From assembly GCA_903946925.1 (NCBI GenBank), contig CAJAXK010000324.1, positions 1 to 48,597 of the forward strand: a DNA stretch of 48,597 nt, given 5' to 3'. Numbering within the stretch: the stretch's first letter is position 1; each line of letters opens with the position of its first letter. Below the pieces are notes generated by a model. It was not told the DNA's origin. It was given only the letters and a program-made list of their open reading frames with translations, and made no database searches. Shown piece by piece: positions 10,928 through 47,204 of this stretch. The stretch comes from an uncultured Bacteroidales bacterium (GTDB taxonomy: Bacteria > Bacteroidota > Bacteroidia > Bacteroidales > UBA4417). Both the position numbers and the translations under genes were made by a program.

Positions 10928-10990
10928 GGATTTCGGATTTGGGATTTCGGATTTGGGATTGCGGATTTCGGATTTGGGATTGCGGATTAA
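10928..10990. repeat. GGATTNN heptanucleotide array (9 units)
   Basis: Nine consecutive 7-bp units (GGATTTC, GGATTTG, GGATTGC, ending GGATTAA) run without interruption directly upstream of the citF start. The same unit, reverse-complemented, makes up the array at 21879-21962. Confidence 0.9.
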
Positions 10991-11004
10991 GGTTTGAGAA
11001 TTTC

Positions 11005-11158: not shown

Positions 11159-11187
11159 TCAATTAACCATTAACCAATAACCATTAC

Positions 11188-16149: not shown

Positions 16150-16152
16150 TTT

Positions 16153-17043
16153 ATGGTTGACGGAAAAAAGAAAATAGTTTTTATTGTAAACCCTAAAGCG
16201 GGCATAACGCCAAAAAGCAAGGTTGTTATTGAGTTGCTGGCTGGGAACCTGATACCATCGGCCAGGTTTATCCCCGAGGTAATTTTCACCGAAAGGGCAG
16301 GCCATGCAACAGAAATTGCTAAGGCTGCAGTTGGCAATGGAGCAGATATAGTTGTTGCTTCGGGTGGCGATGGCACGGTAAACGAAGTTGCTTGTGCTTT
16401 GGTAAATACAGGAATCCCAATGGGGATTTTGCCAGCCGGATCCGGAAATGGACTTGCGCGATGCCTTGGAATATCAATGAGTTACGCTTTGGCTTTACGT
16501 ACTATCATCCGTGGTAACACCAAGCTTATGGATGTTGCAACAGTAAACGATATACTTTATACAAGTATTGCCGGTATTGGTTTCGATGCCCATGTAGCAC
16601 AAAAATTTGCCGACTCGTCGATACGAGGGATGATTTCGTACATGCAAATTGTATTGAACGAATTCAGGGCGTACAAACCTCTAAACTATTCGCTTAACAT
16701 TGATGGTTTGCAGGTTGAAAAACAAGCTTTGATGGTAATTTTCGCCAACAGCAACCAGTTTGGGTTCAATACGCGTGTTGCACCCGATGCAAAAGTTGAC
16801 GATGGGCTTTTAGATGTTTGCGTAATAAAAAAAATGCCAGTATCGCAATTGTTGAGTGCCAGCTACCACCTTTTAATGGGTACGCCTGGAAAAACCGCTT
16901 ACGCCGAATACTACAAAGGAAAAAATATTACTATTGAAAACATATCGGCGCCGCTTATGAACATTGATGGCGAGCCTAAAATAGTAGAATCCCCTGTGAA
17001 CATAAGTGTTAAACCTTTATCCTTGTGCGTAATAGTTCCGTGA
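16153..17043 (+). CDS. Diacylglycerol/YegS-type lipid kinase
   Basis: The protein has 296 residues, the usual size for the soluble DgkB/YegS family. It opens with KIVFIVNPKAG, the family's first strand and loop. The nucleotide-binding signature SGGDGTVNEV lies at residues 70-79 (GGDGT 71-75), followed by GILPAGSGNGLARCLG. The C-terminal half is the beta-sandwich domain ending NIDGEPKIVESPVNISV. These enzymes phosphorylate diacylglycerol or related lipids at the inner membrane face. It is separated from the LtaS-like gene by only 3 bp, so the two are almost certainly one transcript and probably one pathway: headgroup transfer produces diacylglycerol, which this enzyme returns to phosphatidate. 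The exact lipid substrate is inferred. Confidence 0.88.
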   Translation: MVDGKKKIVFIVNPKAGITPKSKVVIELLAGNLIPSARFIPEVIFTERAGHATEIAKAAVGNGADIVVASGGDGTVNEVACALVNTGIPMGILPAGSGNGLARCLGISMSYALALRTIIRGNTKLMDVATVNDILYTSIAGIGFDAHVAQKFADSSIRGMISYMQIVLNEFRAYKPLNYSLNIDGLQVEKQALMVIFANSNQFGFNTRVAPDAKVDDGLLDVCVIKKMPVSQLLSASYHLLMGTPGKTAYAEYYKGKNITIENISAPLMNIDGEPKIVESPVNISVKPLSLCVIVP

Positions 17044-29902: not shown

Positions 29903-30007
29903 GTGCGCTTGTCTGTGAAACAAAAATTTCGTTTTCGTCTCAAAAAGAATTAAGAACTAATAGATTAGAAACATTTTCCAAAGTTGATATACTTTAAACA
30001 TTTAACC

Positions 30008-33000
30008 ATGAAACAGAATTTACAATCACTTATGCAAAGCAAGCCAGCTTTGCTTATTTTCAACTTTTTTCTACTTATTTCAGTAGCAGGTTGGAGTCAA
30101 ACTTATCACACCCTTTCAGGCGGATCATTTACACAAGATTGGACCAATACGGGTTTGATCACTACCGCAAATGTTTGGACTGGTGTTCCGAGTATTATTG
30201 GATACGGCGGTAATGATATTACCGCGTCTACGGGCGTAAACCCTCAGACCCTACTGGGTGAAGGGACAATTACTATTAATGTTCAGGCAAATCAATCAAA
30301 TCCTAACACTAATTCAAGTGGTGGATTTGCTGAGTTCCAAATTACAAATCCTGTTGTCGCCTTTCAAGGTTCTGGTACTTCTGATGCCCCAAATCTTGTT
30401 ATTTTCCTTAATACCATTGGAGTTACTAATATTCAAATACAATATAATTTAAGAGACATAGATGGTTCAGCAGATAATGCCATTCAACAGGTGGCACTGC
30501 AATATCGGATTGGTACGACCGGGAACTTTACTGATATTCCTACAGGTTACATTGCAGATGCAAGTTCAGGGCCGTCACTTGCTACTTTAGTTACTCCTGT
30601 AAGTGTTACTTTACCGGTTGCTACTGAAAATCAAAGCCAGCTTCAATTAAGGATAATAACTTCCAATGCCGGTGGAAGTGATGAATGGATAGGGATAGAT
30701 GATATTTTGGTAACAGGAAGTACTGGTCTTACCGCGCCAATTGTCACCACCCCAACCGCAACAAATATTACTGATATGACTGCCGATTTGGGCGGCAATA
30801 TTGTTTCTGATGGGGGTGCAACACTCACAGAAAGAGGCACGGTTTGGAGTACCTCGACCGGTGTTCTGATTACCGATAATAAACTTATTGATGGAGGAAT
30901 TGCTACTGGAATCTTTTCTCATACCCGTTCGTCCCTTCCATCAGGAACCCAAATTTTTTACAAAGCTTATGCAATAAATAGTTATGGAACCACTTTATCA
31001 ACAGAAGGTAATTTCTATACACTTTCTCTTGAACCCACTTCTCATGCTACTTCTTTTACTGCTGCACCTATTTCACAAACTCAAATTGATTTGGCATTTA
31101 GCCCCGCCAGTTCAATTGTAAATGGAGCTGGCTATTTGATCCTTCAGCGTACAGGAGCGGCTCCGACAGGGGTGCCTGTTGATGCTACTGGCTATGTTGT
31201 TGGAGGTACTATCGGAGATGCCTCGGTTGCTGCCATTGTGAGCAACACATCCACAACAACAATAAATATAACAGGATTGGCTGCAGGAACACAATACTAT
31301 TTCAGTCTATTCCCTTACAATTGGGATGGGTCTGTGGTTGCCACTGATAATTACAGGACAAGTTCGCTCGTTCCTACAATAAATGCAACAACAAATGCGG
31401 CCCTGGATGCTACTTCAGAGATCTCTGGACCTGCGTTGGGCAGCCAACCTGATCCTGTTTTACTTTCATCTTTGGCAACTTCCGATGCCACAGCGGTTCG
31501 CGTTTTTGATATGGATGTTTATGATTATGGCACCGATGGACAGCCAACAAAAATAACCCAGGTAACAATCAAACCAGGTGCAACGAATGAAGCCAATTGG
31601 CCGAATACAATCCAAGGGGTAAAACTATCTTTAGATGGGGGAACAACATTTGCTACTATCGGAATCCCAGTTATTACAGCAGCTTCAATTGTAATTCCTA
31701 TTGTAAGCGGGAATTTGGTTATTCCAAACAACGATGCAAAAACCCTGTCATTGTATGTTTATCTTAAATCATCAGGATTGATTGATAATCAAATTCTCGA
31801 TTTTAAAGTTGATGATGCTGCTGCTTCCCATGGATTTATCGCTGATGCCACAGGTTCTACATTTCTTACCAATTTTACTGCCGCACCTGTTTCGAAACAA
31901 ATGTTGATTGATGTTGCTTCCTCTAAACTTAAGTTCATTGTACAACCAACAAATGCGTTTATCAATGCTACAATGTCACCTGCTGTAACAATTGAAGCAA
32001 CAGATGCAAACAACAACAGAGACTTGGATAATACTGGTGTTGTCGCACTTTCTTCATCAGGAACAATGACAGGACCAGTTTCAGCAACCCTTACTAATGG
32101 TTTGGGTACATTTGGAAGTATCGTTCATACAGCAACTGGTTCAGGTTTAACCCTGACAGCATCATTAAGTGGCATAACAGATGCTGTAAGCAATACATTT
32201 ATTATCACATTGGTTCCAGTTCTTACTGAACTTGTTGTGCCAAAATATATAGCCGCAAAAACCGCTTCCAGTGCTAATTACGCTCGAACTCCATTTGCTG
32301 TTTGTTTAAAAATTGAAAATCTTTTACCTAATACTGCCTATGATATCAAACCGCAAGTTGAGTTATCAACCGGTTTGGCCACATCCTATGGCGCTGGCAA
32401 TATCTGGGGTGCGACCGGCTTTGGTACTGCTAGTGTTTTAAATGCTTTTACAACTGATAATACAGGAAATAGCGGTCCATTCTGGGTGTATATACAACCC
32501 ACAGGTAATGCTTCCCGATTTGGTGCAGGTCAGGTACATACACTCAGAATAGGATATACGGTAAATGGAAGCACAATGCCAGGTACTCCCAATTTTGTTG
32601 GAACAAAAACAATTACAGCTCTAGATATTAATACAGCAGGATTTACTCCTTCCACAACTGATGACGGCGCATATATAAAAGGAAGTGCAGATCCTTCAGT
32701 TACAGGAAAGTATGTTCTTTTGTATGATAATGTCGCTGGAACTGGGGATCCACTGTTCTCATATCAGATACGTCAAGCAATACCAACAAGCACTTTTACT
32801 GACAGTTTACCAAATGCAATAAAAGATGTTTATATTCAATCTGGTACAAGTTCTATCGGAGATTATCCGGCAGTCGTTCCTATTGGTGCAAATAACCCAA
32901 ATGGTGTGCAACGCATTGAAGCCCGAAATGCGGATAATACCATTAATTTTTTCAATACAGATGATGACGGTATTTGGCCATCTGGAGTGAATACAACATC

Positions 33001-33643
33001 CCTCACACGCAAGGCCTTAGGGATTATTACCGTTACTGATGCACCTCTTAAACCAACTAATAAAACTCTCAACTTGACAGCATATCTCGAAAGCCTTTAC
33101 AATGCCGGTATCGGTAAAATGAACCAGGCACAAAAAAGTGGCGCTGCACAATTCGCTGATGGTATTGCCGATGTACTTACTGTTGAACTCCATGATGCAA
33201 CAACCCCATTTGCAACCGCTTATACTTTTGCTGACATTGACCTGAATATAAATGGTACGTTAGCTGTGAATACTGTTCCTTCTGCTGTTTCTGGTAATTA
33301 TTATATTGTTTTAAAACACCGCAACAGTGTTGAACTTTGGAGTGCTACAGCTGTTTCATTTAGTGGAAGCACTATTGATTATAACTTCAGCACTTCAGCT
33401 TCCCAAGCTTATGGGAATGCAATGAAAGACTTGGGAAGCGGGGTTTTCGGGATGTTTGCCGGCGATGTAAACCAGGATGGCATTGTTGACTCAGGCGATA
33501 TGGTTGTTGTTGACAACGATGCGGCAAACTTTATTACTGGGTATGTTGCCAACGATGTAAATGGGGATGGAACTATAAATGCTGCCGACTTGCTGCTTTT
33601 AAACGCCAATGCAACGGGTTTTGTAGGCAAAAAGATGCCATAG
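30008..33643 (+). CDS. Large secreted Ig/Fn3-type protein with dockerin-like C-terminus
   Basis: I start it at ATG 30008 (1211 residues), because the signal sequence MKQNLQSLMQSKPALLIFNF with LISVAGWSQ begins there; an in-frame ATG 8 codons earlier is less likely. The mature protein is a chain of beta-sandwich modules: an N-terminal domain to about 245, an Fn3-like domain (TATNITDMTADLGGNIVSDG, about 255-340), a second one (about 350-470), and Ig-like segments to about 1140. The last 60 residues hold two EF-hand-like loops, GDVNQDGIVDSGD and NDVNGDGTINAAD, as in type I dockerins, ending FVGKKMP. No enzyme domain is recognised. A strong terminator follows. Confidence 0.85.
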   Translation: MKQNLQSLMQSKPALLIFNFFLLISVAGWSQTYHTLSGGSFTQDWTNTGLITTANVWTGVPSIIGYGGNDITASTGVNPQTLLGEGTITINVQANQSNPNTNSSGGFAEFQITNPVVAFQGSGTSDAPNLVIFLNTIGVTNIQIQYNLRDIDGSADNAIQQVALQYRIGTTGNFTDIPTGYIADASSGPSLATLVTPVSVTLPVATENQSQLQLRIITSNAGGSDEWIGIDDILVTGSTGLTAPIVTTPTATNITDMTADLGGNIVSDGGATLTERGTVWSTSTGVLITDNKLIDGGIATGIFSHTRSSLPSGTQIFYKAYAINSYGTTLSTEGNFYTLSLEPTSHATSFTAAPISQTQIDLAFSPASSIVNGAGYLILQRTGAAPTGVPVDATGYVVGGTIGDASVAAIVSNTSTTTINITGLAAGTQYYFSLFPYNWDGSVVATDNYRTSSLVPTINATTNAALDATSEISGPALGSQPDPVLLSSLATSDATAVRVFDMDVYDYGTDGQPTKITQVTIKPGATNEANWPNTIQGVKLSLDGGTTFATIGIPVITAASIVIPIVSGNLVIPNNDAKTLSLYVYLKSSGLIDNQILDFKVDDAAASHGFIADATGSTFLTNFTAAPVSKQMLIDVASSKLKFIVQPTNAFINATMSPAVTIEATDANNNRDLDNTGVVALSSSGTMTGPVSATLTNGLGTFGSIVHTATGSGLTLTASLSGITDAVSNTFIITLVPVLTELVVPKYIAAKTASSANYARTPFAVCLKIENLLPNTAYDIKPQVELSTGLATSYGAGNIWGATGFGTASVLNAFTTDNTGNSGPFWVYIQPTGNASRFGAGQVHTLRIGYTVNGSTMPGTPNFVGTKTITALDINTAGFTPSTTDDGAYIKGSADPSVTGKYVLLYDNVAGTGDPLFSYQIRQAIPTSTFTDSLPNAIKDVYIQSGTSSIGDYPAVVPIGANNPNGVQRIEARNADNTINFFNTDDDGIWPSGVNTTSLTRKALGIITVTDAPLKPTNKTLNLTAYLESLYNAGIGKMNQAQKSGAAQFADGIADVLTVELHDATTPFATAYTFADIDLNINGTLAVNTVPSAVSGNYYIVLKHRNSVELWSATAVSFSGSTIDYNFSTSASQAYGNAMKDLGSGVFGMFAGDVNQDGIVDSGDMVVVDNDAANFITGYVANDVNGDGTINAADLLLLNANATGFVGKKMP

Positions 33644-33667
33644 TTATTAATTCTGTTTTAATACATA

Positions 33668-33703
33668 AAAGGGCGGTGGATCTCTGATTCATCGCCCTTT
33701 TTG
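33668..33703 (+). terminator. Rho-independent terminator
   Basis: An 11-bp stem, AAAGGGCGGTG with CATCGCCCTTT (33668-33678 and 33690-33700, one G-T pair), is followed by TT. It ends the dockerin-like gene 25 bp after its stop. Confidence 0.88.
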
Positions 33704-34511: not shown

Positions 34512-37500
34512 ATGAAACCGAAAATTTACGCTGTGTTTTATCTTCTACTGGCACTGGCATTCTGCAAGGGGCTTTTGGCTCAAAACGTGCGGGTAAGCGG
34601 TAAGATTATTTCGGGTAATGATGGCAACCCGCTTCCGGGAGTTAGTGTAGTGATTAAGGGTACCACAGATGGCGTTTTAACTGATATAAATGGACTTTAC
34701 TCCATTTCTTCCAAACCTGAAGACATACTTGTTTATTCCTATATCGGTTATAGGGCCGTGGACGCAATGGTTGGCAAACAATCCGTAATAGACATTGTGT
34801 TGCAGCTTCAGGCTAAAGAACTGGACGAAATAGTGGTGATTGGATATGGCACAAAAAAAAGAACTGATTTGGTCGGCTCGGTTTCCACGGTTAAGCCAAC
34901 AAATATGGTTGCCAGGCCATCTTCCGACATACAAGGCATGCTTAGGGGTCAGGTTGCCGGACTTGCCGTAACTGTCGGTAGTGCCCGTCCGGGTGGGAGT
35001 TCCAATGTGCTGTTACGTGGGAATAATTCACTCCTAGCCAATACCAGCCCGTTGTATATTGTTGATGGTATCCCGGTAACATCAATAAACGAAATAAATG
35101 TTGAGGATATTGAATCGCTTAGTGTACTGAAAGACGCTTCTTCACAGGCAATCTACGGGGCACGTGCATCAAATGGCGTAATCCTTATTACCACTAAAAG
35201 AGGTTCAGATACAAAAGGTAAGATTAACGTGAAATACGATGGTTATGTAAGCGTGCAGAATGTGAGACCCCATTTTACCGTTTTTTCACCCGAAGAGTAT
35301 ATTCAGGTCAGACGCGAAGCATTCAGGGGCGACAAGGCTAACGCCGGTAATAACTGGACCGGAAATATTAATGATTCAACAAAGTACATGCCTGATGAAC
35401 TTATATTTACACCAGTTGAACTTCAAAATATTGCTGATTCCAATTATGTAGATTGGCTGGATCAGGCATTTAAAAAGAATGTATTACTAACCAAACAGGA
35501 TTTTTCGTTCAGCGGTGGGAACGAAGTGACCAAATATGCTGCTTCTTTGGGGTATTATTATCAGGATGGAGTACGAATGAGTTCCGATTATAAACGCTAT
35601 ACAGGAAGGCTTGCACTCGACCAAAAGGTTGGAAAGAATTTAACTATCGGTATGAATGCATTTTATTCACAATATACACAGCATCAGGAGAACAGTTCCT
35701 GGACCGATTTTATAACTTTTTCGCCGATTGCCGATTTATATGACGATAATGGTGAGCTAAATCTTTATCCCTTAGGGGATTTTAAATCCGTTAACCCTTT
35801 ATACTGGGAAAAAACCAGGAGTCTCACCGTTTTGGGAAACAGGGGAATATACAGTGGTTATCTTGAATACAATCCGGTAAAAGGATTCAAATACAGGCTT
35901 AATGCCAGTATGAGTTCACGTGTGGAAGAAACCGATGATTTCCGTTCCAAAGATGATCCAAGCAGTGTGTTGGGCAAAGGTTTTGCGCAAGCCTATTTTT
36001 ATACTGATAAAGATCTTTTGGTGGAAAATATCCTGACCTACGATGCTAAATTTTACGACAAGCACCGCGTTGATTTTACCTTTATGCAAAGTGCCGATGC
36101 GCGAAAAACAACTACTACAACCAGTACCGCCAATTCCTTGGGGAATGATTTTTTCGGGATTAACAGCCTTGGGTCTGCACTCGAAACATCGGCTGCACGA
36201 ACCCAATCCAATCATAATGTATTGTCATTCATGGGCCGGGTAAATTACATTTTCAACGATCGCTATCTTTTCAATTTTACGATGCGTGCCGATGGTTCTT
36301 CCGTTTTTGGCGCCAATAATAAATGGGGATATTTTCCTTCGGCAGCTTTAGCATGGAATATGCAAAAAGAATCGTTTATGAAAGATATTGCCTGGATTGA
36401 CGAATCAAAGCTCAGGCTTAGTTATGGTCAGATAGGGAACGAGGCCATTTCGCCTTATGGCAGCCTGGCCACGGCAAGCAATGCCTTTTATGTAAGTAAT
36501 GGTACACCGATTACGGGTTATTTGCCCGGTTCCAACCTGCCAAATCCCAATCTTAAATGGGAAACCGCAACAACGTTTAACATTGGATACGACTTTTCGG
36601 TTTTGGAGCAAAGGTTGAAGGGCACCATAGATGTTTACCAACGTATAACTACCGACCTGCTGGTTAGGAGGAATATCCCTGCTGTTCTCGGATATTCCAC
36701 TATGATGGACAATCTTGGTGAACTTCGCAACAAAGGTATTGAGGCAAGCCTTACCGGTTATCTGATATCGAATAAGGATTATACCTGGTCAGTTGGGGGC
36801 ACATTTACCTTAAACCGCAACGAACTTACAAAAGGTGTTTTGCAGGATATGGAAACCGGCGAATATGTGGACGATATCAACAACAAATGGTTTATTGGCG
36901 AACCAGTAAGACAATATTACGATTACAAGTTTGATGGTATATGGCAGATAAGTGACGATATCGCCAATTCGTATATGCCTAAAGCCAGGCCAGGGGATGT
37001 AAAAGTGTTTAATTCGAATGGCGACAGCATTATTAGTGCTGATGATCGTGTAATTATATACTGCGATCCAAAGTTTATTGCTTCATTCAATACAGCTTTT
37101 CATTACCAGGGTTTTGAGCTTTCGGCCGATGTTTACTGGGTCAATGGAGTGGTAAAAAGCAGCCCGTTTATGTCGGATGTAAACTACGGCGGATCCCTCC
37201 AGGGATATAAAAATGGCATTGAACGCGATTACTGGACACCGGAAAATTATTCAAACTCCACTTTCAGACCGCACGAAACGGTTACATCCGAATACCGTGG
37301 GACACTTGATTATCAGGATGCATCCTATGTACGTTTAACCAATGTTACCATTGCATATACCTTGCCATCAAAGCTGCTGAATGCAATTAAGCTTGGGAAA
37401 GTCAGGGTTTACCTGCGTGGCGATAACCTGATAACCATTACTAAATTTTTATCGGTAAGCCCCGAAACCAATCCGGATTCATATCCCGAAACCGTGAATT

Positions 37501-37529
37501 ACACATTAGGCTTAAATATTAATTTTTAA
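34512..37529 (+). CDS. susC: SusC/RagA-type TonB-linked outer membrane transporter
   Basis: The protein has 1005 residues, the standard SusC length. It has a signal peptide (to about 24, LLAQ), then a carboxypeptidase-regulatory-like domain (VRVSGKIISGNDGNPLPGVS, about 27-100), the SusC motif ELDEIVVIGYGTKKRTDLVG (about 104-123), the plug with QVAGLAVTVGSARPGGSSNV and IYGARASNGVILITTKRG, and a beta-barrel to the end (LGLNINF). It forms the lidded outer membrane channel for glycan import together with the SusD protein encoded 22 bp downstream. The substrate is inferred from the enzymes in the locus. It is the first gene of the polysaccharide utilization locus, behind a -7 element and direct repeats. 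Confidence 0.95.
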   Translation: MKPKIYAVFYLLLALAFCKGLLAQNVRVSGKIISGNDGNPLPGVSVVIKGTTDGVLTDINGLYSISSKPEDILVYSYIGYRAVDAMVGKQSVIDIVLQLQAKELDEIVVIGYGTKKRTDLVGSVSTVKPTNMVARPSSDIQGMLRGQVAGLAVTVGSARPGGSSNVLLRGNNSLLANTSPLYIVDGIPVTSINEINVEDIESLSVLKDASSQAIYGARASNGVILITTKRGSDTKGKINVKYDGYVSVQNVRPHFTVFSPEEYIQVRREAFRGDKANAGNNWTGNINDSTKYMPDELIFTPVELQNIADSNYVDWLDQAFKKNVLLTKQDFSFSGGNEVTKYAASLGYYYQDGVRMSSDYKRYTGRLALDQKVGKNLTIGMNAFYSQYTQHQENSSWTDFITFSPIADLYDDNGELNLYPLGDFKSVNPLYWEKTRSLTVLGNRGIYSGYLEYNPVKGFKYRLNASMSSRVEETDDFRSKDDPSSVLGKGFAQAYFYTDKDLLVENILTYDAKFYDKHRVDFTFMQSADARKTTTTTSTANSLGNDFFGINSLGSALETSAARTQSNHNVLSFMGRVNYIFNDRYLFNFTMRADGSSVFGANNKWGYFPSAALAWNMQKESFMKDIAWIDESKLRLSYGQIGNEAISPYGSLATASNAFYVSNGTPITGYLPGSNLPNPNLKWETATTFNIGYDFSVLEQRLKGTIDVYQRITTDLLVRRNIPAVLGYSTMMDNLGELRNKGIEASLTGYLISNKDYTWSVGGTFTLNRNELTKGVLQDMETGEYVDDINNKWFIGEPVRQYYDYKFDGIWQISDDIANSYMPKARPGDVKVFNSNGDSIISADDRVIIYCDPKFIASFNTAFHYQGFELSADVYWVNGVVKSSPFMSDVNYGGSLQGYKNGIERDYWTPENYSNSTFRPHETVTSEYRGTLDYQDASYVRLTNVTIAYTLPSKLLNAIKLGKVRVYLRGDNLITITKFLSVSPETNPDSYPETVNYTLGLNINF

Positions 37530-37551
37530 CCTGCAATTAAAACACTGAACG

Positions 37552-39183
37552 ATGAAAAGTAGAAAAATAATAATCCTGATGTTTCTTCTTCTGTCAACTG
37601 TTTTATGGAGTTGCAAAGAATTTCTAGTTGAAGAAAATCCGTATGAAGTAACTACTGATTTCCTGTACAAAACGCAGGATGGACTGCAATCGGCTGTAAA
37701 CGGGTTGTATTCGCTGGAACGCGCCCAGGTTGACGATAACGAAAGCAGTGATTTTGCGGTAGTTATGGGCGATTGTGGAACTGATATCGATTTTATGAGA
37801 GCTGCACTTAACCAGTGTGTTGCCCGTTACCGTCCCGACCTGAGTTTCCCTATCCAGGGAGCAGTAAGCAGTTGGTGGAAAAAGGAATACCGCATTATTG
37901 AACGGACAAACAACATTATCACTTCAGGTCAAACTGCCGATATCCCTGTTTCGGAAAAAGAAAAAATACTCCGGGAAGCCTATATTCACCGTGCGAATTC
38001 CTATTTCTGGCTGGTGCGAAAATTCGACAATATCTGGCTTAACCTTGAACCAACCACTATCGACAACTTCGAAAACAGAACCTTTTCGGTTGGTACCCAG
38101 GATGAAGTTTACAAAGTAATCATTTCTGATCTTGATTCCGCAATTCGTTATTTCAACGATGATTGGACCGCCCGGCCTGGTCAGTTTGGCTTAGGTGCGG
38201 CATTGTTTCTGCGCATAGATGTTGCATTGTGGAGGCAGGACTATCAAACAGCAGCAAGTCTGTCCGAAAAACTTATTTCCGAAGGCCCTTATTCATTAAT
38301 TGATCCAGCACTGGTTTTCACCAGGGATGCCCGTAATGACACAAAAGAGGGGATTTATGTAATGCAATTTGATGAATTTGCAGTTGGCGGAGCTGATGTT
38401 AGTACCGTCAATGGTGGACCATCCGGTCACAGGATGGCTTTGGTGTTCACAGCAGATTACAAAGCAGTACCTGGAACAGCACAGGTTTCGGAATATGGTG
38501 GTTATGGCTGGGCGAGGGTTTTCCCGAATGAATATCTTTTGAGCCTGTACAACCAGAAATACGATAAACGCTGGAACGAATGGTGGCAGCATTACTATAC
38601 TTACAATAACGAGAATTACAATTTTGCCGGGCAGACTTTTAAATTAGGCGATACACTGGAGTATGGGCAAGGCTCAACACTTACCGGGACCAATTATTTT
38701 AAAAACGCTAGTGTGGGATGCAAAAAATATTTCGATTGGGTGAAAATTGCCAATACGTTGCGTTCCTTTAACAATCTGTATATGTATAGATTTTCAGAGG
38801 TTTACCTGATGGCAGCCGAAGCCAATATGCGTCTGGGAAATACGGATAAAGCGCTCTTTTATATAAACCAACTCAGGAGAAACAGGATTTCTTCATCCGA
38901 CCCAAACCAAACCTTAACTATGTTCGACGAGGAAACACTCATTGAAGAACACGCCCGCGAACTGGCTTTTGAAGGAAGACGTTGGTTTTTCCTCAAAAGG
39001 TTGGGACTGCTTGTCGACAGGGTTCGGGCAACCGGTGGAACAACCATGTTCAGGGGAGTTGTGGCTACTGACCCGGCCTGGTATTCGGCCCGAAGCAACA
39101 TCAAAGACTTTCATGTTCGCTGGCCAATTCCTCAAAGTGAAATTGATGCTATGGGCGGTTTCCCTCAAAATGAAGGGTATTAG
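37552..39183 (+). CDS. susD: SusD/RagB-type glycan-binding lipoprotein
   Basis: The protein has 543 residues with lipobox VLWSC and Cys21, followed by KEF, a short charged motif of the kind linked to surface export in Bacteroidota. The SusD pattern is clear: helical TPR-like repeats (EKILREAYIHRANSYFWLVR, about 140-160), the region FNNLYMYRFSEVYLMAAEAN near 405-425, and the closing ELAFEGRRWFFLKRLGLLVD and WPIPQSEIDA motif. SusD caps the SusC channel at the cell surface and binds oligosaccharides. The gene starts 22 bp after susC and is followed after 74 bp by the beta-helix protein gene, so an operon is likely. Confidence 0.95.
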   Translation: MKSRKIIILMFLLLSTVLWSCKEFLVEENPYEVTTDFLYKTQDGLQSAVNGLYSLERAQVDDNESSDFAVVMGDCGTDIDFMRAALNQCVARYRPDLSFPIQGAVSSWWKKEYRIIERTNNIITSGQTADIPVSEKEKILREAYIHRANSYFWLVRKFDNIWLNLEPTTIDNFENRTFSVGTQDEVYKVIISDLDSAIRYFNDDWTARPGQFGLGAALFLRIDVALWRQDYQTAASLSEKLISEGPYSLIDPALVFTRDARNDTKEGIYVMQFDEFAVGGADVSTVNGGPSGHRMALVFTADYKAVPGTAQVSEYGGYGWARVFPNEYLLSLYNQKYDKRWNEWWQHYYTYNNENYNFAGQTFKLGDTLEYGQGSTLTGTNYFKNASVGCKKYFDWVKIANTLRSFNNLYMYRFSEVYLMAAEANMRLGNTDKALFYINQLRRNRISSSDPNQTLTMFDEETLIEEHARELAFEGRRWFFLKRLGLLVDRVRATGGTTMFRGVVATDPAWYSARSNIKDFHVRWPIPQSEIDAMGGFPQNEGY

Positions 39184-39257
39184 CATTTAGTTCTCGCTGA
39201 ACTGAGGTTAGCAAGCTGAAGCCTGAAAATAAATTACAGTTGGTTTAAAAAATTACC

Positions 39258-41621
39258 ATGTTCCAGAATTTTATTGAATTTAAAGCCTTGTTACGTAGCA
39301 TTTCAATCGCTTGTTTGCTGATTATTTTAGCATCGGTTATTTCACAAAATGCAGAAGCTCAAACAGTGCTAACGGCATCTGACGACTGCTATATTTTTGC
39401 TGGTGGCCCAAAAGCTTTGGAACCTTATGGCCTTATCGACCCCGATAGCCTTAAAACCAGGAAAAGTGTTTCATCCGATCAGTTTACCCGCGAAACATAT
39501 ATCAAGTTTCAGATAGGCACACCCGATACAACATACATTTCTGCTTTTGTGAAGCTCTACGGGCAGGTTTTGGAAGCAAAAAAAGTACAAATATATTATA
39601 CCGATACGGCATGGCTTGAGGAATCACTTACCGGGGCAACACGGCCAGCCGGAACGTACATAGGCGATTTGTTGGTTGGAGTTGGTGAAGGGTATTATTC
39701 GTGGGATGTTACCAACTATTTGAACAAGGCATTGTCGGAAGGCAGAGTTAGTGTGGCATTTATCCTTAAAGATGTGGCCGGAGCCGTTTCAACCAAGGAT
39801 ACCAAATGGCACTCCAAAGAAAATGCCTCAGGGAATCAACCTTTGCTCGAATTGACAGAAGGGCAGCCCCCTATACACAGAACAGGGGCATATTATATTG
39901 ATTTTAATGGTGGTAACGACAATAATACGGCAGCAAGCCCCGCTCATGCATGGAAAAACTTGTCGGCTTTAAGTTCCGTTACTTTTGAACCCGGCGATTC
40001 TATTTTGCTTAAAACAGATCAGATCTGGCAAGGGCAGTTAAAGTTCAGCGGTAGCGGCAGAGCCGGAAAACCGATAATTATTGGCAAATACGGCAACGGC
40101 GACAATCCAAAAATTGAAGGACAGGGTTTGGTTGAAAATACCGTACAGCTTACAAATCAGCAATTTATCGAAATCCAGGATTTGCATATCACCAATTTTG
40201 GCGACACAGTTGCTTTCCGCCGGGGGATTTATGTGCAGGCCGAAGATATGGGTGCTGTAAAACACATTGTTTTCCGCAGGCTCGAGGTTAGTGATGTAAA
40301 TGGAACCTACGATACTGAAATTTCAAAGAATAACGGTGGTATCTTTTTCGACATTACAGGATCAGGTACTCCTACATTTTTTGATACTCTGGTAGTGGAA
40401 GATTGCTATATCCACGATGTTGACCGCACAGGAATTTCGAACCGTTCGTCATGGGACAACCGTACGCTGACCACCGACGGTGACTGGACACCAAGCAAGA
40501 ATTTGGTTTACCGGAACAATACTTTTGAGCGCACTGCCGCCAATGCTATGATTGTGCGCGTTGCCTACAAACCACTTATGGAATATAACCTTTTCAATAA
40601 TTGCTCTATAAAGGGATCGGGCAATGCAAGTTTTAGCTTTAACACCAATTATGCACTCTGGCAATATAACGAGGCCTGTTTTACCAAATTTAATAGTGGC
40701 GATGAGGATGCCGGCGGATTCGACAGCGACTATTACTCAAAGTTTACCACGATCCAATACAATTACAGTCACGATAATGGATACGGTGCCATACTTTTAA
40801 CCGGTGGGCCGGGAAGCAATTTCAACGACGGTACCGTTATCCGTTATAATGTGATGGAAAACAATTCCGACCATGTTATCCGAACTTCTGGAACGGCAAC
40901 TAACAGCACAATCTATAACAACTCAATCTACAGCAAATCCAGTTTGGTAAATATTGACCTGATCAGGCATAAAAGTTGGGAAGGATATTCCGTTAATACT
41001 AAATACTACAACAATATTTTTCAGGTGATGGGTTTGGGTGCTAGTGTAGATTTGGGTTCAAGTACAGGCAATGTATTCGATTATAATATTTTCTTTGGCC
41101 CTTCTATCGGTAATGTGCCGGCTGATGCTCACAAAATTATCATTGATCCTCAGTATGTTTCACCAGAAGAGCCATTAAACAGTTTCGACTCTTTGACAGG
41201 ATTCAGGCTTAAAGAAGGATCTCCGGCCCGAAATTCAGGAATGGTTGTTCCCGGCAGCCCGCAATTTGATTTAGAAGGGAATACGGTTCCAACTTATGGA
41301 ATCCCCGATAGAGGTGCTTTTGAATATACAGGGCCAAATGGAATTGGTGATCTGGCTTTTATCCCAAATTTGAAAGTATTTCCTAACCCAGCCTCCTACT
41401 ACATAAAAATTGAAGCCGACCCTTTTAAATATTCAATGGTTAACGTTTCACTTTCAACAATAGATAACAAACTTTTAATGTCACGCGATTATAAGGTTAC
41501 AAATAACGGCCTTGATATTAGCCTGCAAATTGATAACCTAAATATTGTACCCGGGGTTTATGTGCTTTCACTGGTTTCAGAAATGCATACATTCCAAAAA
41601 ACATTAATATTTATTCGATAA
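39258..41621 (+). CDS. CBM96/DNRLRE plus parallel beta-helix protein with T9SS tail
   Basis: The protein has 787 residues with a signal peptide ending NAEAQ near residue 35. Residues about 37-200 resemble the DNRLRE/CBM96 module (TVLTASDDCYIFAGG, RETYIKFQIG, AFVKLYGQVLE, YYSWDVTNYLNKAL), which accompanies alginate and other polysaccharide-active enzymes. Residues about 210-690 are a right-handed parallel beta-helix: YYIDFNGGNDNNTAASPAHA, then GKPIIIGKYGNGDNPKIEGQ and repeated YNYSHDNGYGAILLTGG / RYNVMENNSDHVIR strands. This fold is shared by polysaccharide lyases (such as PL6) and some glycosidases. Residues about 700-787 are a T9SS type A tail (LKVFPNPASYYIKIEA, then VPGVYVLSLVSE). The catalytic residues and substrate are not assigned. 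It is expected on the cell surface. Confidence 0.85.
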   Translation: MFQNFIEFKALLRSISIACLLIILASVISQNAEAQTVLTASDDCYIFAGGPKALEPYGLIDPDSLKTRKSVSSDQFTRETYIKFQIGTPDTTYISAFVKLYGQVLEAKKVQIYYTDTAWLEESLTGATRPAGTYIGDLLVGVGEGYYSWDVTNYLNKALSEGRVSVAFILKDVAGAVSTKDTKWHSKENASGNQPLLELTEGQPPIHRTGAYYIDFNGGNDNNTAASPAHAWKNLSALSSVTFEPGDSILLKTDQIWQGQLKFSGSGRAGKPIIIGKYGNGDNPKIEGQGLVENTVQLTNQQFIEIQDLHITNFGDTVAFRRGIYVQAEDMGAVKHIVFRRLEVSDVNGTYDTEISKNNGGIFFDITGSGTPTFFDTLVVEDCYIHDVDRTGISNRSSWDNRTLTTDGDWTPSKNLVYRNNTFERTAANAMIVRVAYKPLMEYNLFNNCSIKGSGNASFSFNTNYALWQYNEACFTKFNSGDEDAGGFDSDYYSKFTTIQYNYSHDNGYGAILLTGGPGSNFNDGTVIRYNVMENNSDHVIRTSGTATNSTIYNNSIYSKSSLVNIDLIRHKSWEGYSVNTKYYNNIFQVMGLGASVDLGSSTGNVFDYNIFFGPSIGNVPADAHKIIIDPQYVSPEEPLNSFDSLTGFRLKEGSPARNSGMVVPGSPQFDLEGNTVPTYGIPDRGAFEYTGPNGIGDLAFIPNLKVFPNPASYYIKIEADPFKYSMVNVSLSTIDNKLLMSRDYKVTNNGLDISLQIDNLNIVPGVYVLSLVSEMHTFQKTLIFIR

Positions 41622-41633
41622 TAAACACATGTT

Positions 41634-43055
41634 ATGAGGCCAATTGGTATAACACCGTTTCTTTTGGTATTCCTATTTTCGGGATTGGTTTCGTGTTCCA
41701 CAAGCAAGCAAACCAACAACAAAAGCTCAGTTGTGGTCGAAGCCAAAAAGTGGAGTAGGGTGGATGGGAAAATAAAACATTCAAAATGGATGAAATTTGA
41801 GGCAACAACATTAAATGTCCTTCCAGGTTTTATTCCCGAATCCACTGAGGATTTTAGCATATACGGAGGCGATACCGAAAATAAGACTATTTCTACAGGT
41901 TATTTTTATACAAAAAAAGTTGATGGGAGATGGTGGGTCATCGATCCTGAAGGATTTGCCTGCTGGCATGTTGGTGTTAGTGGTATAAGACCTGGTGGTT
42001 CGGAAAGGAATAAATCGGCCTTGACAAAGGAGTTCGAAACCCCGGAGAAATGGGTTGTAAAAACCAGCACTAAAATCACTGAATTGGGTTTCAACGGGGC
42101 TGGTTGCTGGTCAGATGTCCCGCTGATCCGCTTGAGTAATCAGGATGCCAATACTCCTTTGAGTTACACGATGATATGGAATTTTTTTACCGGATACAGC
42201 AAACAAAAAAAACAAAATAATACAAAAGGACCTTCTTTCCCTGTGTTTGATGCCGAGTTTGAAACCTATTGCGAAGAGCAGGCAAAAAAACTGGAAGAAA
42301 CACGAAATGACCCAAACCTGTTTGGCCATTTCTCTGACAATGAACTTAGCTTTAGCGACAAAACCCTGGATGAATATCTAGCGGTAACAGACGCCAATGA
42401 TTTGAATTATAAAGCAGCAATTGAGTGGCTAAAGCGAAAAGGTGTTTCTGTTAATTCAATCACCGATTCAATTCGGAACGCATTTCTTGAAACTGTCTCC
42501 AACCGCTATTATTCTGTAGTTTCCGGTTCAATCAAAAAGCATGATCCAAACCATTTATATCTTGGCAGCAGGCTTCATGGCAAGCCAAAACACAATAAGG
42601 GGATTATTGAAGCTGCCGGAAAATATGCCGATATAATTTCAATCAATTATTACGGGCAATGGGAACCAGCAAGGAAACACTTCAGCGAATGGCAGGCATG
42701 GACTAACAAACCTATACTGATTACCGAGTTTTATACCAAAGGTGAAGATTCGGGTTTGGCCAATATTTCCGGGGCTGGATGGACAGTGCATACTCAAAAC
42801 GACAGGGGGATTTTTTATGAGAATTTCTGCCTATCGCTCTTGCAAATGAACAACTGTGTTGGGTGGCATTGGTTCCGCTACATGGACAATGACCCGACCG
42901 ACAAAACTGCCGACCCTTCCAACAACGATTCCAACAAAGGCATTGTGGATAATAACTACCAGTATTACAGCCCTCTTACCGACCACATGCGAATTTTAAA
43001 TATAAACCGGTATAAGCTGATAAAATATTTCCGTAAAAAAGAAATTATTGGTTAG
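41634..43055 (+). CDS. Agarase-like glycoside hydrolase lipoprotein (GH50/GH86-like)
   Basis: The protein has 473 residues with lipobox LVSC and Cys21. The core is a clan-A (beta/alpha)8 barrel: GRWWVIDPEGFACWHVGVSG near 100 resembles the GRWW-DP-G start of GH50 agarases. Two glutamates sit where clan-A retaining enzymes have them: Glu237 in HFSDNELSF (acid/base candidate) and Glu365 in ILITEFYTKGEDSG (nucleophile candidate), followed by VGWHWFRYMDNDPTD, which lines the active site in agarases. The expected role is cleavage of a red-algal galactan or related beta-glycan at the cell envelope. The family assignment (GH50, GH86 or a relative) is from motif memory. It starts 12 bp after the beta-helix gene, so it is in the same operon. 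Confidence 0.75.
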   Translation: MRPIGITPFLLVFLFSGLVSCSTSKQTNNKSSVVVEAKKWSRVDGKIKHSKWMKFEATTLNVLPGFIPESTEDFSIYGGDTENKTISTGYFYTKKVDGRWWVIDPEGFACWHVGVSGIRPGGSERNKSALTKEFETPEKWVVKTSTKITELGFNGAGCWSDVPLIRLSNQDANTPLSYTMIWNFFTGYSKQKKQNNTKGPSFPVFDAEFETYCEEQAKKLEETRNDPNLFGHFSDNELSFSDKTLDEYLAVTDANDLNYKAAIEWLKRKGVSVNSITDSIRNAFLETVSNRYYSVVSGSIKKHDPNHLYLGSRLHGKPKHNKGIIEAAGKYADIISINYYGQWEPARKHFSEWQAWTNKPILITEFYTKGEDSGLANISGAGWTVHTQNDRGIFYENFCLSLLQMNNCVGWHWFRYMDNDPTDKTADPSNNDSNKGIVDNNYQYYSPLTDHMRILNINRYKLIKYFRKKEIIG

Positions 43056-43082
43056 AAACCGATACTTTTAGAAAAAAAATAT

Positions 43083-46000
43083 ATGAAAATCCCGGACAGC
43101 ATTACAAGCACTTGGTCCAAAATACTGCTTTGTATTTTGCTCTTGCCTGTTTTTGCTTGGGCTCAGGATAAAAACTTGTTTTTCAGGCACCTGACGACCA
43201 ATGAAGGCCTGTCGCACAACTCGGTATATTCCATTTGCGAGGATGATAATGGTTTCATTTGGATCGGAACACGTAGCGGATTGAACCGTTTCGATGGGTA
43301 TTCTTTTAAAATATATGATAACCAAAGTGGGTTACGGAATGCGTATATCAATACCGTTTTCAAAGATTCAAAGGGCCGTATCTGGATAGGTACACAGGAA
43401 GGAGGTTTGAGCCTTTATAATTCCGCTACCGATAGTTTTAAAACTTTTATTTTCGATTCGCCCAATCCGGGTATTTCCGAAGAGGATAATATTCAGGCAA
43501 TTGCCGAAGATTCAAAAGGCAATATCTGGGCAGGTACACATAAGGATGATTTATTCAGGGTTGATGAAAAGGAAGGCAAACTTATCAGGTTTCATCTTCC
43601 GGATAGGTTGAAAGCCGGGGCACAGATTGAGCGAATCAATTGCATGTTATTTGAAAGCGATTCGCTATTATGGTTAGGTACGATGGGTGGGCTTTTTAAG
43701 TATAATCAGATAACCAATAAGGTTAGTCCCGCATTTTCGGTGGACGGGATAATAAATGCCCATGTACTCAGCCTTTTCAATGAAAATGATCAGAAAATCT
43801 GGCTGGGCACTACTGCGGGCATGATGAGGTATGACAAAAAAAACCAAATTGCCGAAATTTTCACCACCACAAATTCGGAACTTACCAACGATCAGGTTTT
43901 GGATATTAAACGGATTCCTGACGGGCGTATCATGATAGCTACTGATGGTGGTGGATTAAATTTATATAATCCAATAAACGGCAATATAACATCCAGTAAA
44001 AACGATCCCAATAATCCTTATACCATAAGCAACAACTCAGTTTACTGCATTTTTGTTGATATAAACAAAGGGCTTTGGGTGGGAAATTATAGTGGTGGGA
44101 TTAATTATTACAGCGAATTTGATTGGAAGTTTCTTCCTATAAAGCATCAAGTCAACGACAACGAGAGCCTTTCCGATAACCATATCCGCACTTTTTTTCA
44201 GGATCGCGATGGGAATATCTGGATTGGCACGCTTGGTGGTCTGAACCTTTACAATGCAACAACCGGCAAATTCAAATCTTTTACTTTTAATAAAGCGGAA
44301 AGCAATTCGCTGAGTTCCAATTCGGTGCTAACCATTTACGAAGATCGTGATGGGTTTATCTGGATAGGTACTTTTGGTGGAGGAATCAGCATTTTCAATA
44401 AAAAGAACAACAGTTTCCGAAAGTTCAGCCATGTTGACGACGCAAGCGGTTCCCTCAACAAATCAAGCATTTATGCCATTAGCGAAACCAGTAACAATAA
44501 ATTATGCATTGCCAGTCTTGGAGGGATTTATTTGCTCGATATGAATACCGGCAGGATGAAAAGGTTTACATCATCCAACTCAAAATTGTCGAGCAATACA
44601 GTTAAAGTATTGTGCAATAACAGGCAAGGGAATGTTTGGTTAGGAACAAACCGCGGTTTGAACCTCTTTAATCCCGAAACCGGGGAATTTAAAGTATATC
44701 TGCATTCAAATTCGGACACCGCGACCTTGATAAACAACCGGATTTTATCCTTGCTCGAAGACAGCGATGGCAAGCTTTGGGTTGGTACTGAGGGAGGTGG
44801 GATAAGTATTTTTAACCCAGCGCAGGAAAATTTCACAAGTATCACAACCTCAGATGGGTTACCCGATAATGTAATAAACGGCATTGTGCAGGACGACCAG
44901 GGGTTGTTCTGGTTTTCGACAAATAAGGGATTGGTACAATACGATGCTTTGCACAAAAAAGTAAAAATATTTACGGCTGCAGATGGTTTGCAAGGTAACG
45001 AGTTCAACCAGAAAGCTGCATTTATGTCGCGTGAAGGAAGGCTGTATTTCGGTGGGAGCAATGGCTTTAATGCTTTCCTGCCCGGAAGCCTTCCATCCAA
45101 CCAAAACCCGCCTAAAGTAATTTTTACCGATTTATATATTTCCAATAAAATTGTAAACGTGGGCGAGGCTAACAGCCCTTTGGACGAGCAGTTATTTTTA
45201 CTTAAAAGGCTCACGCTTACAAATGAACAGTCAAATTTCGAGATCCGTTTTTCGGCATTGGGGTTTATAAACAAAGGCAAGTATAAATATGCCTTTATGA
45301 TGAAAGGGATTGATAAATCATTTACCGATTTCCGTGAGGTTCAATCAGCCAATTATTCCAATCTGCGGCCCGGGCTATATACTTTTATGGTAAAGGCGGT
45401 GAATAATGATGGTATTTACAGCCTCGAACCGACAACTATCGAAATACGGGTTTTACCTCCATGGTATAAAACATGGTGGGCATACTGCTTCTATGCCTTA
45501 GTAATTATAGCAGCACTGGTACTTTTTATAAGACTAAATACCTCGTGGGTAAAAGTAAAACAACAATTAGCGCTTGAAAGAATCGAAAAAGGACATATTG
45601 ACGAACTTAACCAATTAAAACTTGGTTTTTTTACAAATATCTCGCATGAATTCAAAACCCCGTTGACCTTGATATTGGGTCATCTTGACAATTATAAAAA
45701 TGCAGGTTCCGAACGAAAATCAGAAACGCTGGCCAACATTGAGAAGAATGCAAAAAGGCTCTTGTTCCTAATAAACCAATTGCTCGAATTCAGAAAAGCC
45801 GAAAGTGGCCTGATGAAACTTAAAGCAGCAAAAAGCAATGTCGTGCAGTTGTTTACGGGAATCAAAGAAAGTTTTGACGACCTCGCAATAAAGAAAAACA
45901 TAAAATTCGATTTGATTGTAAACGGCGATATCCCTGAAATCTGGATCGATATAGAGAAAGTCGAAAAGATTTTCTTTAACCTTTTGTCGAATGCCTTTAA

Positions 46001-47204
46001 ATATACCCACGAATACGGTTCCATTGTGGTGCAAATCACTGAGGTGAAATTGTCGGAGTTGCAAGGAAGCCGAAATCAGCCTAATTGTGTTGAAATTATT
46101 GTTAAAGATACTGGTATTGGAATTGCACCTGCCGAACTTCCAATGATTTTCGAAAGGTTTTATCAAATACCCAAAAGCGAAAGTGCCAATCGTAAAATTG
46201 ATAGCTCGGGCATTGGTCTGGCTTATACCAAAAGACTGGTAGAATTACATCACGGAAGCATTTCTGCTGATAGTGAACCAGATAAAGGTTCAGCTTTTTC
46301 AGTGCGTTTTCCTGTAGGGAAAAACCACCTGAGCGATTCGGAAATTAAAGAGGATGCAAATTTTCAGCTAAAAATGGATTATGAAGACCTGACCGCTTCT
46401 CAGGTTGAAAGTATACACTATGGTGAAACCAGTAATCACAAAGGGAATGATAAACCCATTTTACTTGTGGTTGATGATAATCCACAGATATGCAGTGTGA
46501 TAGCAAATAAATTCGGCAAAGCTTATCATGTTTTAACAGCTTCGAACGGGAAAATGGGGCTCGAAGAGGCGAAAATGCACATGCCTGATATTATAATTTC
46601 GGATATAATGATGCCGGAAATGGATGGCATACAATTTTGTCAAAAAATAAAAAGTGATTTCAGCACTTCCCATATCCCGGTAATATTATTAACAGCCAAA
46701 AGTGGCGACGAAAACCAGATTCAAGGCTTGAAAACAGGAGCAGATGCCTATATTTCAAAGCCGTACAATCCTGAATTGTTGCAGGTTACAATTGATAACC
46801 TTACCACAAACAGGAAATTGCTCCGTACAAAATTTGCCGAACAGCCCAATTTCGTCCCTGCAGAGGTTGTTAGCAACAAAATGGATGAACAATTCCTGGT
46901 AAAAATAATACAGTTGATTGAAAATGATCTGGATTCCGATACGCTCGATGTAACTAAACTTAGCCGGGAAGTAGCGATGAGCCGTTCGGTTTTATACAGG
47001 AAACTTAAAGCTTTGACAGGTAATTCGATACAGGATTTTGTCCGGGTGGTGAAATTGCGCAAAGCGGCTCGCTTGCTGCTCGAAAGCGACAGTCCTATTT
47101 CGGACGTCGCATTTCAATCAGGTTTTTCAAATTCAAAGCATTTCAGCACGGCATTCAAGCGGCAGTTTGGCAAAACGCCAAGCGAATACAGGGTCAAAGC
47201 CTGA
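43083..47204 (+). CDS. Hybrid two-component system sensor-regulator (HTCS) of the PUL
   Basis: The protein has 1373 residues in the classic HTCS order. A signal peptide (to about 28, FAWAQ) is followed by 14 Reg_prop blades (for example GFIWIGTRSGLNRFD, GRIWIGTQEGGLSLY and GKLWVGTEGGGISIF), which form two seven-bladed periplasmic propellers. A Y_Y_Y domain (about 690-790) and one membrane segment near 800-818 follow. The kinase has HisKA with His855 in NISHEFKTPLTL and an HATPase (NAFKYTHEYG, VKDTGIGI, SSGIGLAYTKRLVELHHG). The receiver has Asp1174 in IISDIMMPEMDG. An AraC-type helix-turn-helix closes the protein (about 1265-1373, SDVAFQSGFSNSKHFSTAFK). It should sense an oligosaccharide and activate the susC operon. 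It lies 27 bp after the glycoside hydrolase gene. Confidence 0.96.
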   Translation: MKIPDSITSTWSKILLCILLLPVFAWAQDKNLFFRHLTTNEGLSHNSVYSICEDDNGFIWIGTRSGLNRFDGYSFKIYDNQSGLRNAYINTVFKDSKGRIWIGTQEGGLSLYNSATDSFKTFIFDSPNPGISEEDNIQAIAEDSKGNIWAGTHKDDLFRVDEKEGKLIRFHLPDRLKAGAQIERINCMLFESDSLLWLGTMGGLFKYNQITNKVSPAFSVDGIINAHVLSLFNENDQKIWLGTTAGMMRYDKKNQIAEIFTTTNSELTNDQVLDIKRIPDGRIMIATDGGGLNLYNPINGNITSSKNDPNNPYTISNNSVYCIFVDINKGLWVGNYSGGINYYSEFDWKFLPIKHQVNDNESLSDNHIRTFFQDRDGNIWIGTLGGLNLYNATTGKFKSFTFNKAESNSLSSNSVLTIYEDRDGFIWIGTFGGGISIFNKKNNSFRKFSHVDDASGSLNKSSIYAISETSNNKLCIASLGGIYLLDMNTGRMKRFTSSNSKLSSNTVKVLCNNRQGNVWLGTNRGLNLFNPETGEFKVYLHSNSDTATLINNRILSLLEDSDGKLWVGTEGGGISIFNPAQENFTSITTSDGLPDNVINGIVQDDQGLFWFSTNKGLVQYDALHKKVKIFTAADGLQGNEFNQKAAFMSREGRLYFGGSNGFNAFLPGSLPSNQNPPKVIFTDLYISNKIVNVGEANSPLDEQLFLLKRLTLTNEQSNFEIRFSALGFINKGKYKYAFMMKGIDKSFTDFREVQSANYSNLRPGLYTFMVKAVNNDGIYSLEPTTIEIRVLPPWYKTWWAYCFYALVIIAALVLFIRLNTSWVKVKQQLALERIEKGHIDELNQLKLGFFTNISHEFKTPLTLILGHLDNYKNAGSERKSETLANIEKNAKRLLFLINQLLEFRKAESGLMKLKAAKSNVVQLFTGIKESFDDLAIKKNIKFDLIVNGDIPEIWIDIEKVEKIFFNLLSNAFKYTHEYGSIVVQITEVKLSELQGSRNQPNCVEIIVKDTGIGIAPAELPMIFERFYQIPKSESANRKIDSSGIGLAYTKRLVELHHGSISADSEPDKGSAFSVRFPVGKNHLSDSEIKEDANFQLKMDYEDLTASQVESIHYGETSNHKGNDKPILLVVDDNPQICSVIANKFGKAYHVLTASNGKMGLEEAKMHMPDIIISDIMMPEMDGIQFCQKIKSDFSTSHIPVILLTAKSGDENQIQGLKTGADAYISKPYNPELLQVTIDNLTTNRKLLRTKFAEQPNFVPAEVVSNKMDEQFLVKIIQLIENDLDSDTLDVTKLSREVAMSRSVLYRKLKALTGNSIQDFVRVVKLRKAARLLLESDSPISDVAFQSGFSNSKHFSTAFKRQFGKTPSEYRVKA

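Follow-up and report, generated by a model that had tools for sequence, protein, structure and literature searches.

Which glycan is addressed by a polysaccharide utilization locus (PUL) in which a beta-helix protein and an agarase-like lipoprotein stand between a SusC/SusD pair and a sensor? The question is raised by positions 34512-47204 of contig CAJAXK010000324.1 (C324) from an uncultured Bacteroidales bacterium (assembly GCA_903946925.1, here G000; 6.17 Mb in 498 contigs), the whole of which, 48,597 nucleotides, was analysed and is hereafter called the window. A preliminary description had given the gene order as SusC, SusD, beta-helix protein, agarase-like lipoprotein and hybrid sensor, and the open reading frames (ORFs) together with domain matches bear this order out. 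As the gaps between the five genes are short (22, 74, 12 and 27 bases), the genes are likely to form an operon. With the SusC/SusD pair, the enzymes and the sensor arranged like an operon on the plus strand, the locus qualifies as a PUL.

On balance, we favour the reading that these genes are the core of a larger PUL for a non-agar glycan with beta-linked hexuronate, most likely glucuronate. A beta-hexuronate glycan is a likely substrate, and agar and alginate are poorly supported ones. The earlier conclusion that the substrate is open, and possibly uncharacterised, stands.

The beta-helix protein has a GH136 fold

Searching PDB sequences with phmmer, we found that the beta-helix protein matches 7v6m (E 9.8e-30) and 6kqs (E 7.2e-17). 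The structural modelling suggested in the preliminary description was carried out from 15 aligned sequences (mean pLDDT 79), and the closest structures were of GH136. The top six Foldseek matches were GH136 lacto-N-biosidase chains (E 5.7e-21 to 7.7e-16), followed by GH87 (5.8e-8). VIA-align gave Z scores of 37.7, 37.0 and 36.2 for 7v6m, 5gqc and 7v6i (27-28% identity), the first with a root-mean-square deviation (rmsd) of 2.2 over 459 aligned residues at 28% identity; AlgE epimerases followed with Z 31.1-31.3 (14-15% identity) and the two ErLnb136 entries with Z 30.7 (27%). The acid/base D568 and nucleophile D575 of ErLnb136 (PMC7335108) align with D484 and D491, neither of which varies among the 15 sequences of the alignment that contains the window protein; the two-residue offset between chain and paper numbering of ErLnb136 was inferred from the seven-residue spacing of the aspartates. 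D484 is thus the putative acid/base and D491 the putative nucleophile. The GH136-like identity of the protein is well supported.

The CBM96-type carbohydrate-binding module (CBM) noticed earlier on this protein was recovered with 82.5 bits against a cut-off of 26 (PF24517). Its founding member binds alginate, with Lys, Arg and Tyr as the ligand residues of TM6-N4, according to PMC9971899, and the module had been taken to imply an alginate enzyme. This implication fails here, the catalytic domain being GH136-like and no recognisable alginate enzyme being attached. The CBM part of the model was closer to 8wab, a CBM that binds chondroitin sulfate (target TM 0.77), than to the alginate CBM 7vbo (0.59). 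As for the description of a beta-helix protein carrying a type IX secretion system (T9SS) tail, the beta-helix was upheld, but the tail of the window protein is weak and reaches neither of the curated cut-offs (21.9 against 27 in Pfam, 16.7 against 23 in NCBIfam). Three relatives exceed the NCBIfam value (L045, 25.9; L047, 28.9; L066, 29.7), and the domain scan found no such tail in L085 nor in the second-type beta-helix proteins L037 and L039.

The lipoprotein hydrolase belongs to a BpGH50-like branch

The hydrolase had no Pfam or NCBIfam match at E 0.01. In phmmer it matched 5t3b (BpGH50) with E 5.2e-73 over residues 77-468 and the beta-agarase 4bq2 with E 1.2e-31. Glu237 and Glu365, singled out earlier as key residues, did not vary in either of two alignments that include the window protein (5 of 5 and 40 of 40 sequences). 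E237 aligns with the 4bq2 glutamate that is Gln in 4bq4, and by alignment both residues are putative catalytic glutamates.

A tree of 96 rows, built by a quick method with a midpoint root and several long branches flagged, split 86 rows, among them BpGH50 and the window hydrolase, from 10 long proteins with support 99; these ten include two Catenovulum proteins, and only one of them is annotated as an agarase. The window hydrolase falls in a clade of seven (support 99), all seven with a beta-helix gene directly upstream. Agarase_CBM (PF17992) was not found in the window hydrolase (Pfam, E 0.01) and is present in both Catenovulum proteins compared, one annotated as agarase and one as beta-galactosidase. 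According to PMC8260779, BpGH50 is located in an algal-galactan PUL of B. plebeius and is inactive on agarose and neoagarotetraose (NeoDP4). The claimed resemblance to agarases therefore holds as kinship with GH50 but not as a premise of agarase function, the protein sitting in a BpGH50-like branch apart from the long agarase-type proteins.

A tblastn search of plasmids gave seven records, the best at 31.9% identity, and no agar gene is named in the annotated B. finegoldii neighbourhood. One plasmid, labelled Pseudomonas aeruginosa from blood, has a gene annotated as beta-agarase whose product shares 23.7% identity with the query (NZ_CP131792.1, 453022-454053). At L042:10014-12302 in genome G045, a 762-amino-acid (aa) chain fuses GH50-like and CBM96 domains and thereby links both families directly; its SusCD locus also has a GH5-type gene.

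The locus probably continues beyond the window and is linked to a hexuronidase-type GH2

The locus had been described as compact, with a single glycoside hydrolase. The five genes were confirmed, but 'only one hydrolase' was not: this count is incomplete because the beta-helix protein itself resembles a glycosidase, and the PUL probably extends past 47204. The window would end inside the locus: within its final 400 bases, a stretch of 362 matches one end of contig C71 at 95.9%, and C71 carries a GH2 gene. The other end of C71 in turn matches the start of C247 (288 bases, 94.8%). The gene truncated at the end of the window links the PUL to C71, and a 719-aa protein of genome G011 is its positional counterpart. 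C71 encodes a T9SS-tailed protein and a 616-aa GH2 with an NxK motif (N586-R-K588); C247 encodes an IolG-like protein and a GDSL esterase as well as a second CBM96/GH136-like protein (1061 aa) and an LnbY-like protein (402 aa).

On contig C169 of G002 the order from GH2 to the LnbY-like gene is identical to that of C71/C247, and contig C174 of G011 is similar, not identical, with two T9SS-type proteins, GH2, a SASA esterase, an LnbY-like gene and, running into the contig end, the first part of a CBM96 protein. In G001, of the same genus as the window, the second beta-helix and LnbY-like genes lie upstream of SusC on the opposite strand. Downstream of its sensor follow two T9SS-tailed proteins, GH2, a mannonate oxidoreductase (368.3 bits, cut-off 281), a gene resembling 2-keto-3-deoxygluconate (KDG) kinase, a hexonate epimerase (581.1, cut-off 500) and a PdxB-like gene, and then a phosphogluconate dehydrogenase, a GDSL-like gene (by eye), a glucuronate isomerase (644.7, cut-off 387) and a major facilitator superfamily (MFS) transporter. 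This isomerase is the sole copy in G001 at E 1e-30 and lies 14 kb from the sensor; in G152 the sole copy at the same threshold is on the contig that carries the beta-helix and GH50-like genes.

The gene set is conserved in close relatives and GH2 recurs in the wider family

The nearest relatives in the named collection are uncultured Bacteroidales metagenome-assembled genomes (MAGs) and one Bacteroidetes MAG. Among the genomes of the genus and order, own genome included, 8 of 60 had a match to the hydrolase. The five-gene order also occurs in G001 and, with a sensor truncated by the contig end, in G011. In G002 the SusD and beta-helix genes run up to the contig end and no hydrolase match was obtained; G021 and G045 have the hydrolase without a beta-helix neighbour. 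Across 395 sampled genomes, own included and with at most two candidates scored per genome, the GH50-like gene (E < 1e-100) was present in seven, the beta-helix gene in four and both in three (G000, G302 and G152), always on a shared contig, with a distance between them of about 0.3 kb in G302 and 12 kb in G152. These three genomes are not independent, because two belong to one family.

We then scanned more widely with the hydrolase, finding 250 relatives, of which 80 loci were kept and their neighbours within 10 kb clustered. The loci come from Pedobacter, Flavobacterium, Chitinophagaceae, gut Bacteroidales and many MAGs, together with some Verrucomicrobiota, Planctomycetota, Ignavibacteria, Abditibacteria and Sumerlaeia. 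Their neighbours include SusD (54 loci), SusC (49), GH2 (44), a hybrid two-component system (HTCS) sensor (28), GH10 (27), GH3 (24) and GH88-like genes (8). N-x-K-G was matched as a pattern after residue 500 in 44 of 48 neighbouring GH2 proteins and as NRKG in 26 of 27 of the 550-700-aa type; it stood in register in all eight GH2 proteins aligned. NxK marks most GH2 beta-hexuronidases, exceptions without the motif being named (PMC12243196). The best solved match of a GH2 representative was 6d1n, a beta-galactosidase/beta-glucuronidase entry (E 4.8e-231), and the third was 7vqm, a beta-galacturonidase (E 1.8e-198).

Two further arrangements are strongly conserved: HTCS-SusC-SusD-GH10-PKD protein-GH50-GH2 in Flavobacterium and kin (L099-L102, L104-L108, L111, L114, L115, L118) and HTCS-SusC-SusD-GH10-GH50-GH3-GH2 in gut-type Bacteroidales (L094, L097, L103, L110). 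Some of these loci are truncated by contig ends. None of the paper titles listed in an open-access literature search describes either.

The second beta-helix gene has an LnbY-like neighbour

GH136 enzymes require a partner subunit or domain (GH136I/LnbY). The LnbY-like gene is present as a single copy on C247 near the second beta-helix gene (E 2.8e-15, 56.8 bits against a cut-off of 400). At E 1e-10, G000, G001, G002 and G011 each have a single such gene, in the vicinity of the second beta-helix gene, the proteins of these four genomes being themselves part of the query alignment. None lies beside the window beta-helix gene; in L066 a weak match (E 4.5e-4) is placed between the beta-helix and GH50-like genes. 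The LnbY-like profile had no match at E 1 among PDB sequences. A model of the protein (pLDDT 71) resembles SurA/PrsA foldases, the highest Z being 9.8 and the rmsd mostly high; the N-domain of 6kqs (ErLnb136) is not among the structural matches listed. Since the GH136I domain is reported to resemble weakly a Helicobacter peptidyl-prolyl isomerase (PPIase; PMC7335108), and the model is SurA/PrsA-like, a foldase origin of the LnbY-like protein is a fair guess.

A hexuronate glycan as the likely substrate

For a PUL acting on a hexuronate glycan, the following course may be proposed. The sensor would detect an oligosaccharide and turn the operon on. The GH136-like protein, exported by the T9SS and anchored to the polymer through CBM96, would free short units by a retaining mechanism (D484/D491), and the BpGH50-like lipoprotein would cleave a second beta-linkage with E237/E365. 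SusC and SusD would take up the released pieces, the GH2 beta-hexuronidase encoded just downstream would strip the uronate, and glucuronate would then enter the route of isomerase, mannonate oxidoreductase and KDG kinase.

Several observations weigh against this reading. The overlaps between C324, C71 and C247 are inexact, which may reflect mixed strains in the assembly. The glucuronate isomerase of the own genome is on C103, for which no connection with the PUL was seen, and that of G302 is on a contig other than the one with the PUL genes. In the wider family 11 of 80 loci have the beta-helix gene, which immediately adjoins the GH50-like gene in seven, uronate-catabolism clusters (UxuA) occur in nine of 80, and four of the seven sampled genomes with a strong GH50-like match have no strong beta-helix match. 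The GH2 could equally act on galacturonate. As to GH136, AlgE epimerases (Z 31.3) are on a par with two of five GH136 entries (Z 30.7) at half the identity, and the NCBIfam LnbX model does not match the window protein even at E 10. It matches seven relatives, all far below its cut-off (E-values: L075, 1.7e-11; L066, 8.2e-26; L045, 3.8e-13; L047, 6.7e-5; L085, 1.1e-10; L037, 1.1e-19; L039, 2.4e-24). G152 and G302 have the beta-helix protein and no LnbY-like partner at E 1e-10. Finally, we know of no activity for any close relative.

Among the other explanations, the one that survives best, albeit unlikely, is that the PUL serves a neutral glycan of plants or algae, in which case the hexuronidase and the uronate genes would be chance neighbours or serve another locus. 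The PUL proper is without a uronate enzyme and, in the assembly of the window itself, the isomerase shows no linkage to it, both in line with this explanation, but a GH2 with the hexuronidase pattern recurs in the wider family (44 of 80 loci), and the nearby sole isomerase copy of G001 and the same-contig copy of G152 speak for a connection.

It is quite improbable that the locus is a host-glycan or lacto-N-biose type system, with the beta-helix protein as a genuine lacto-N-biosidase for glycans that contain N-acetylhexosamine (HexNAc), as its solved GH136 matches, all titled lacto-N-biosidases, and the LnbY-like gene near the second copy could suggest. No HexNAc catabolism gene turned up among the scanned neighbours, where no dedicated search for one was made, and the Gal-stacking Trp548 of ErLnb136 is ambiguous, corresponding to Phe461 in the MAFFT alignment but to Trp468 in that of phmmer.

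That the locus is an agar or porphyran PUL, with the GH50-like protein as an exo-beta-agarase and the beta-helix protein as a helper, appears very improbable, even with a hydrolase akin to GH50 agarases and to a BpGH50 that itself belongs to an algal-galactan PUL. We rate it low because of the tree, the Agarase_CBM that was not found and the inactivity of BpGH50 described above; moreover, the five-gene PUL is without an agar partner gene, and the 80 relatives are, by our judgement from their titles, mostly non-marine (chiefly Pedobacter, Flavobacterium, Chitinophagaceae and further Bacteroidota). A Catenovulum query that we took, as a guess, for GH117 (its annotation says no more than glycoside hydrolase family protein, and it has a weak GH43 match) gave no match in G000, but neither did the control work, save for a weak match (E 2.9e-7) in one of nine genomes, and with so poor a positive control this search says little and is no proof of absence. 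Most doubtful of all is an alginate or other uronan lyase system in which the beta-helix protein would be a PL6-like lyase or epimerase guided by an alginate-binding CBM96: AlgE epimerases, level with the two ErLnb136 entries, and PL6 lyases (Z about 26-29) are among the structural matches, but three GH136 entries score higher (Z 36.2-37.7), the GH136 aspartate pair is invariant, and it is the lead of GH136 in Foldseek, with all top six chains, and in identity (27-28% for five entries against 12-16% for lyases and epimerases) that makes us rate this system low.

Within the preferred reading of a hexuronate PUL, we tentatively consider it possible that the GH136 fold was recruited in environmental Bacteroidota as a hexuronate-releasing biosidase, freeing a glucuronate-containing disaccharide from a polymer much as lacto-N-biosidase frees lacto-N-biose, together with a non-agarase GH50 branch and a SurA-like relative of LnbY. 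If so, GH136 and GH50 would both be broader than their known activities, and a new class of PUL substrate would exist in soil, lake and gut bacteria. The matched GH136 structures are all lacto-N-biosidases, and a CBM-bearing relative in a PUL would show this fold in use beyond milk and mucin sugars. In wheat-straw soil consortia enriched in GH50 genes, the authors call the role of GH50 in lignocellulose deconstruction unknown; the same consortia had low GH50 levels, the family was neutral or deselected along transfers, and GH117, a neoagaro-family, was enriched too (PMC4561380). A GH50 branch tied to hexuronidases would be a testable answer to that role.

Other features of the window

Terminator-like sites numbered 10 against 14.6 expected in shuffles, and therefore their count is no evidence; the hairpin listed below has the longest stem among them. 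A promoter scan (37 sites against 36.5 expected) was uninformative, and no Rfam family matched the window at its gathering score.

Features of the PUL region in the window
Feature	Position	Strand	Basis
Terminator-like hairpin, 16 pairs	33667..33701	+	Between upstream gene and SusC
SusC-type TonB-dependent transporter, 1005 aa	34512..37529	+	ORF; TIGR04056 E 8.1e-239, 795.7 bits (cut-off 368.25)
SusD-type surface lipoprotein, 543 aa	37552..39183	+	PF07980 E 6.7e-31; lipobox by eye
GH136-like beta-helix enzyme (putative), 787 aa	39258..41621	+	CBM96 36-200; beta-helix ~208-690; weak T9SS tail 707-784
BpGH50-like lipoprotein hydrolase (putative), 473 aa	41634..43055	+	phmmer 5t3b; putative catalytic E237/E365; lipobox by eye
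Hybrid two-component sensor/regulator, 1373 aa	43083..47204	+	Pfam: Reg_prop, Y_Y_Y, HisKA, HATPase, receiver, AraC helix-turn-helix
Start of secreted protein, truncated at contig end	47503..48597	+	Kin: 718-aa G001 protein with T9SS tail (71.7%)

Large secreted-looking proteins recur round the locus in the genus (window 29984-33643, L037 and L039), one with a dockerin-like end. Farther upstream, positions 9344-12432 encode the alpha subunit of citrate lyase as well as a CitE-like protein (HpcH/HpaI) fused to an acyl carrier protein (ACP)-type domain. At 14197-17043 a sulfatase-family protein adjoins a diacylglycerol-kinase-type protein, an arrangement that is perhaps related to the envelope rather than to glycans.

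Comparison with known systems

The Flavobacterium GH10-GH50-GH2 and the Dysgonomonas, Parabacteroides and Prevotella GH10-GH50-GH3-GH2 loci share with the window locus the GH50-like family, SusCD, a hybrid sensor and a hexuronidase-type GH2; in contrast to it, they have GH10 and some of them GH3, and none showed a GH136-like gene. The catalytic glutamates of BpGH50 (5t3b) and of GH50 beta-agarases are common to the window hydrolase, which aligns with 5t3b over residues 77-468. It differs from the beta-agarases in that no Agarase_CBM was found and its branch is separate from the long agarase-type proteins; BpGH50, for its part, lies deep in the tree on a long branch, and the family of the window hydrolase often has hexuronidase-type GH2 neighbours. 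With the GH136 lacto-N-biosidases (Bifidobacterium longum LnbX/LnbY, ErLnb136, TnX and BsaX), the window protein has in common the beta-helix fold over residues 208-690 at 27-28% identity and the pair of aspartates seven residues apart, and an LnbY-like protein is encoded in its genome near the second copy. The window protein, whose sugar-binding residues may differ, adds to the lacto-N-biosidase plan an N-terminal CBM96, a probable C-terminal T9SS tail and a place in a SusCD locus with a GH50-like enzyme.

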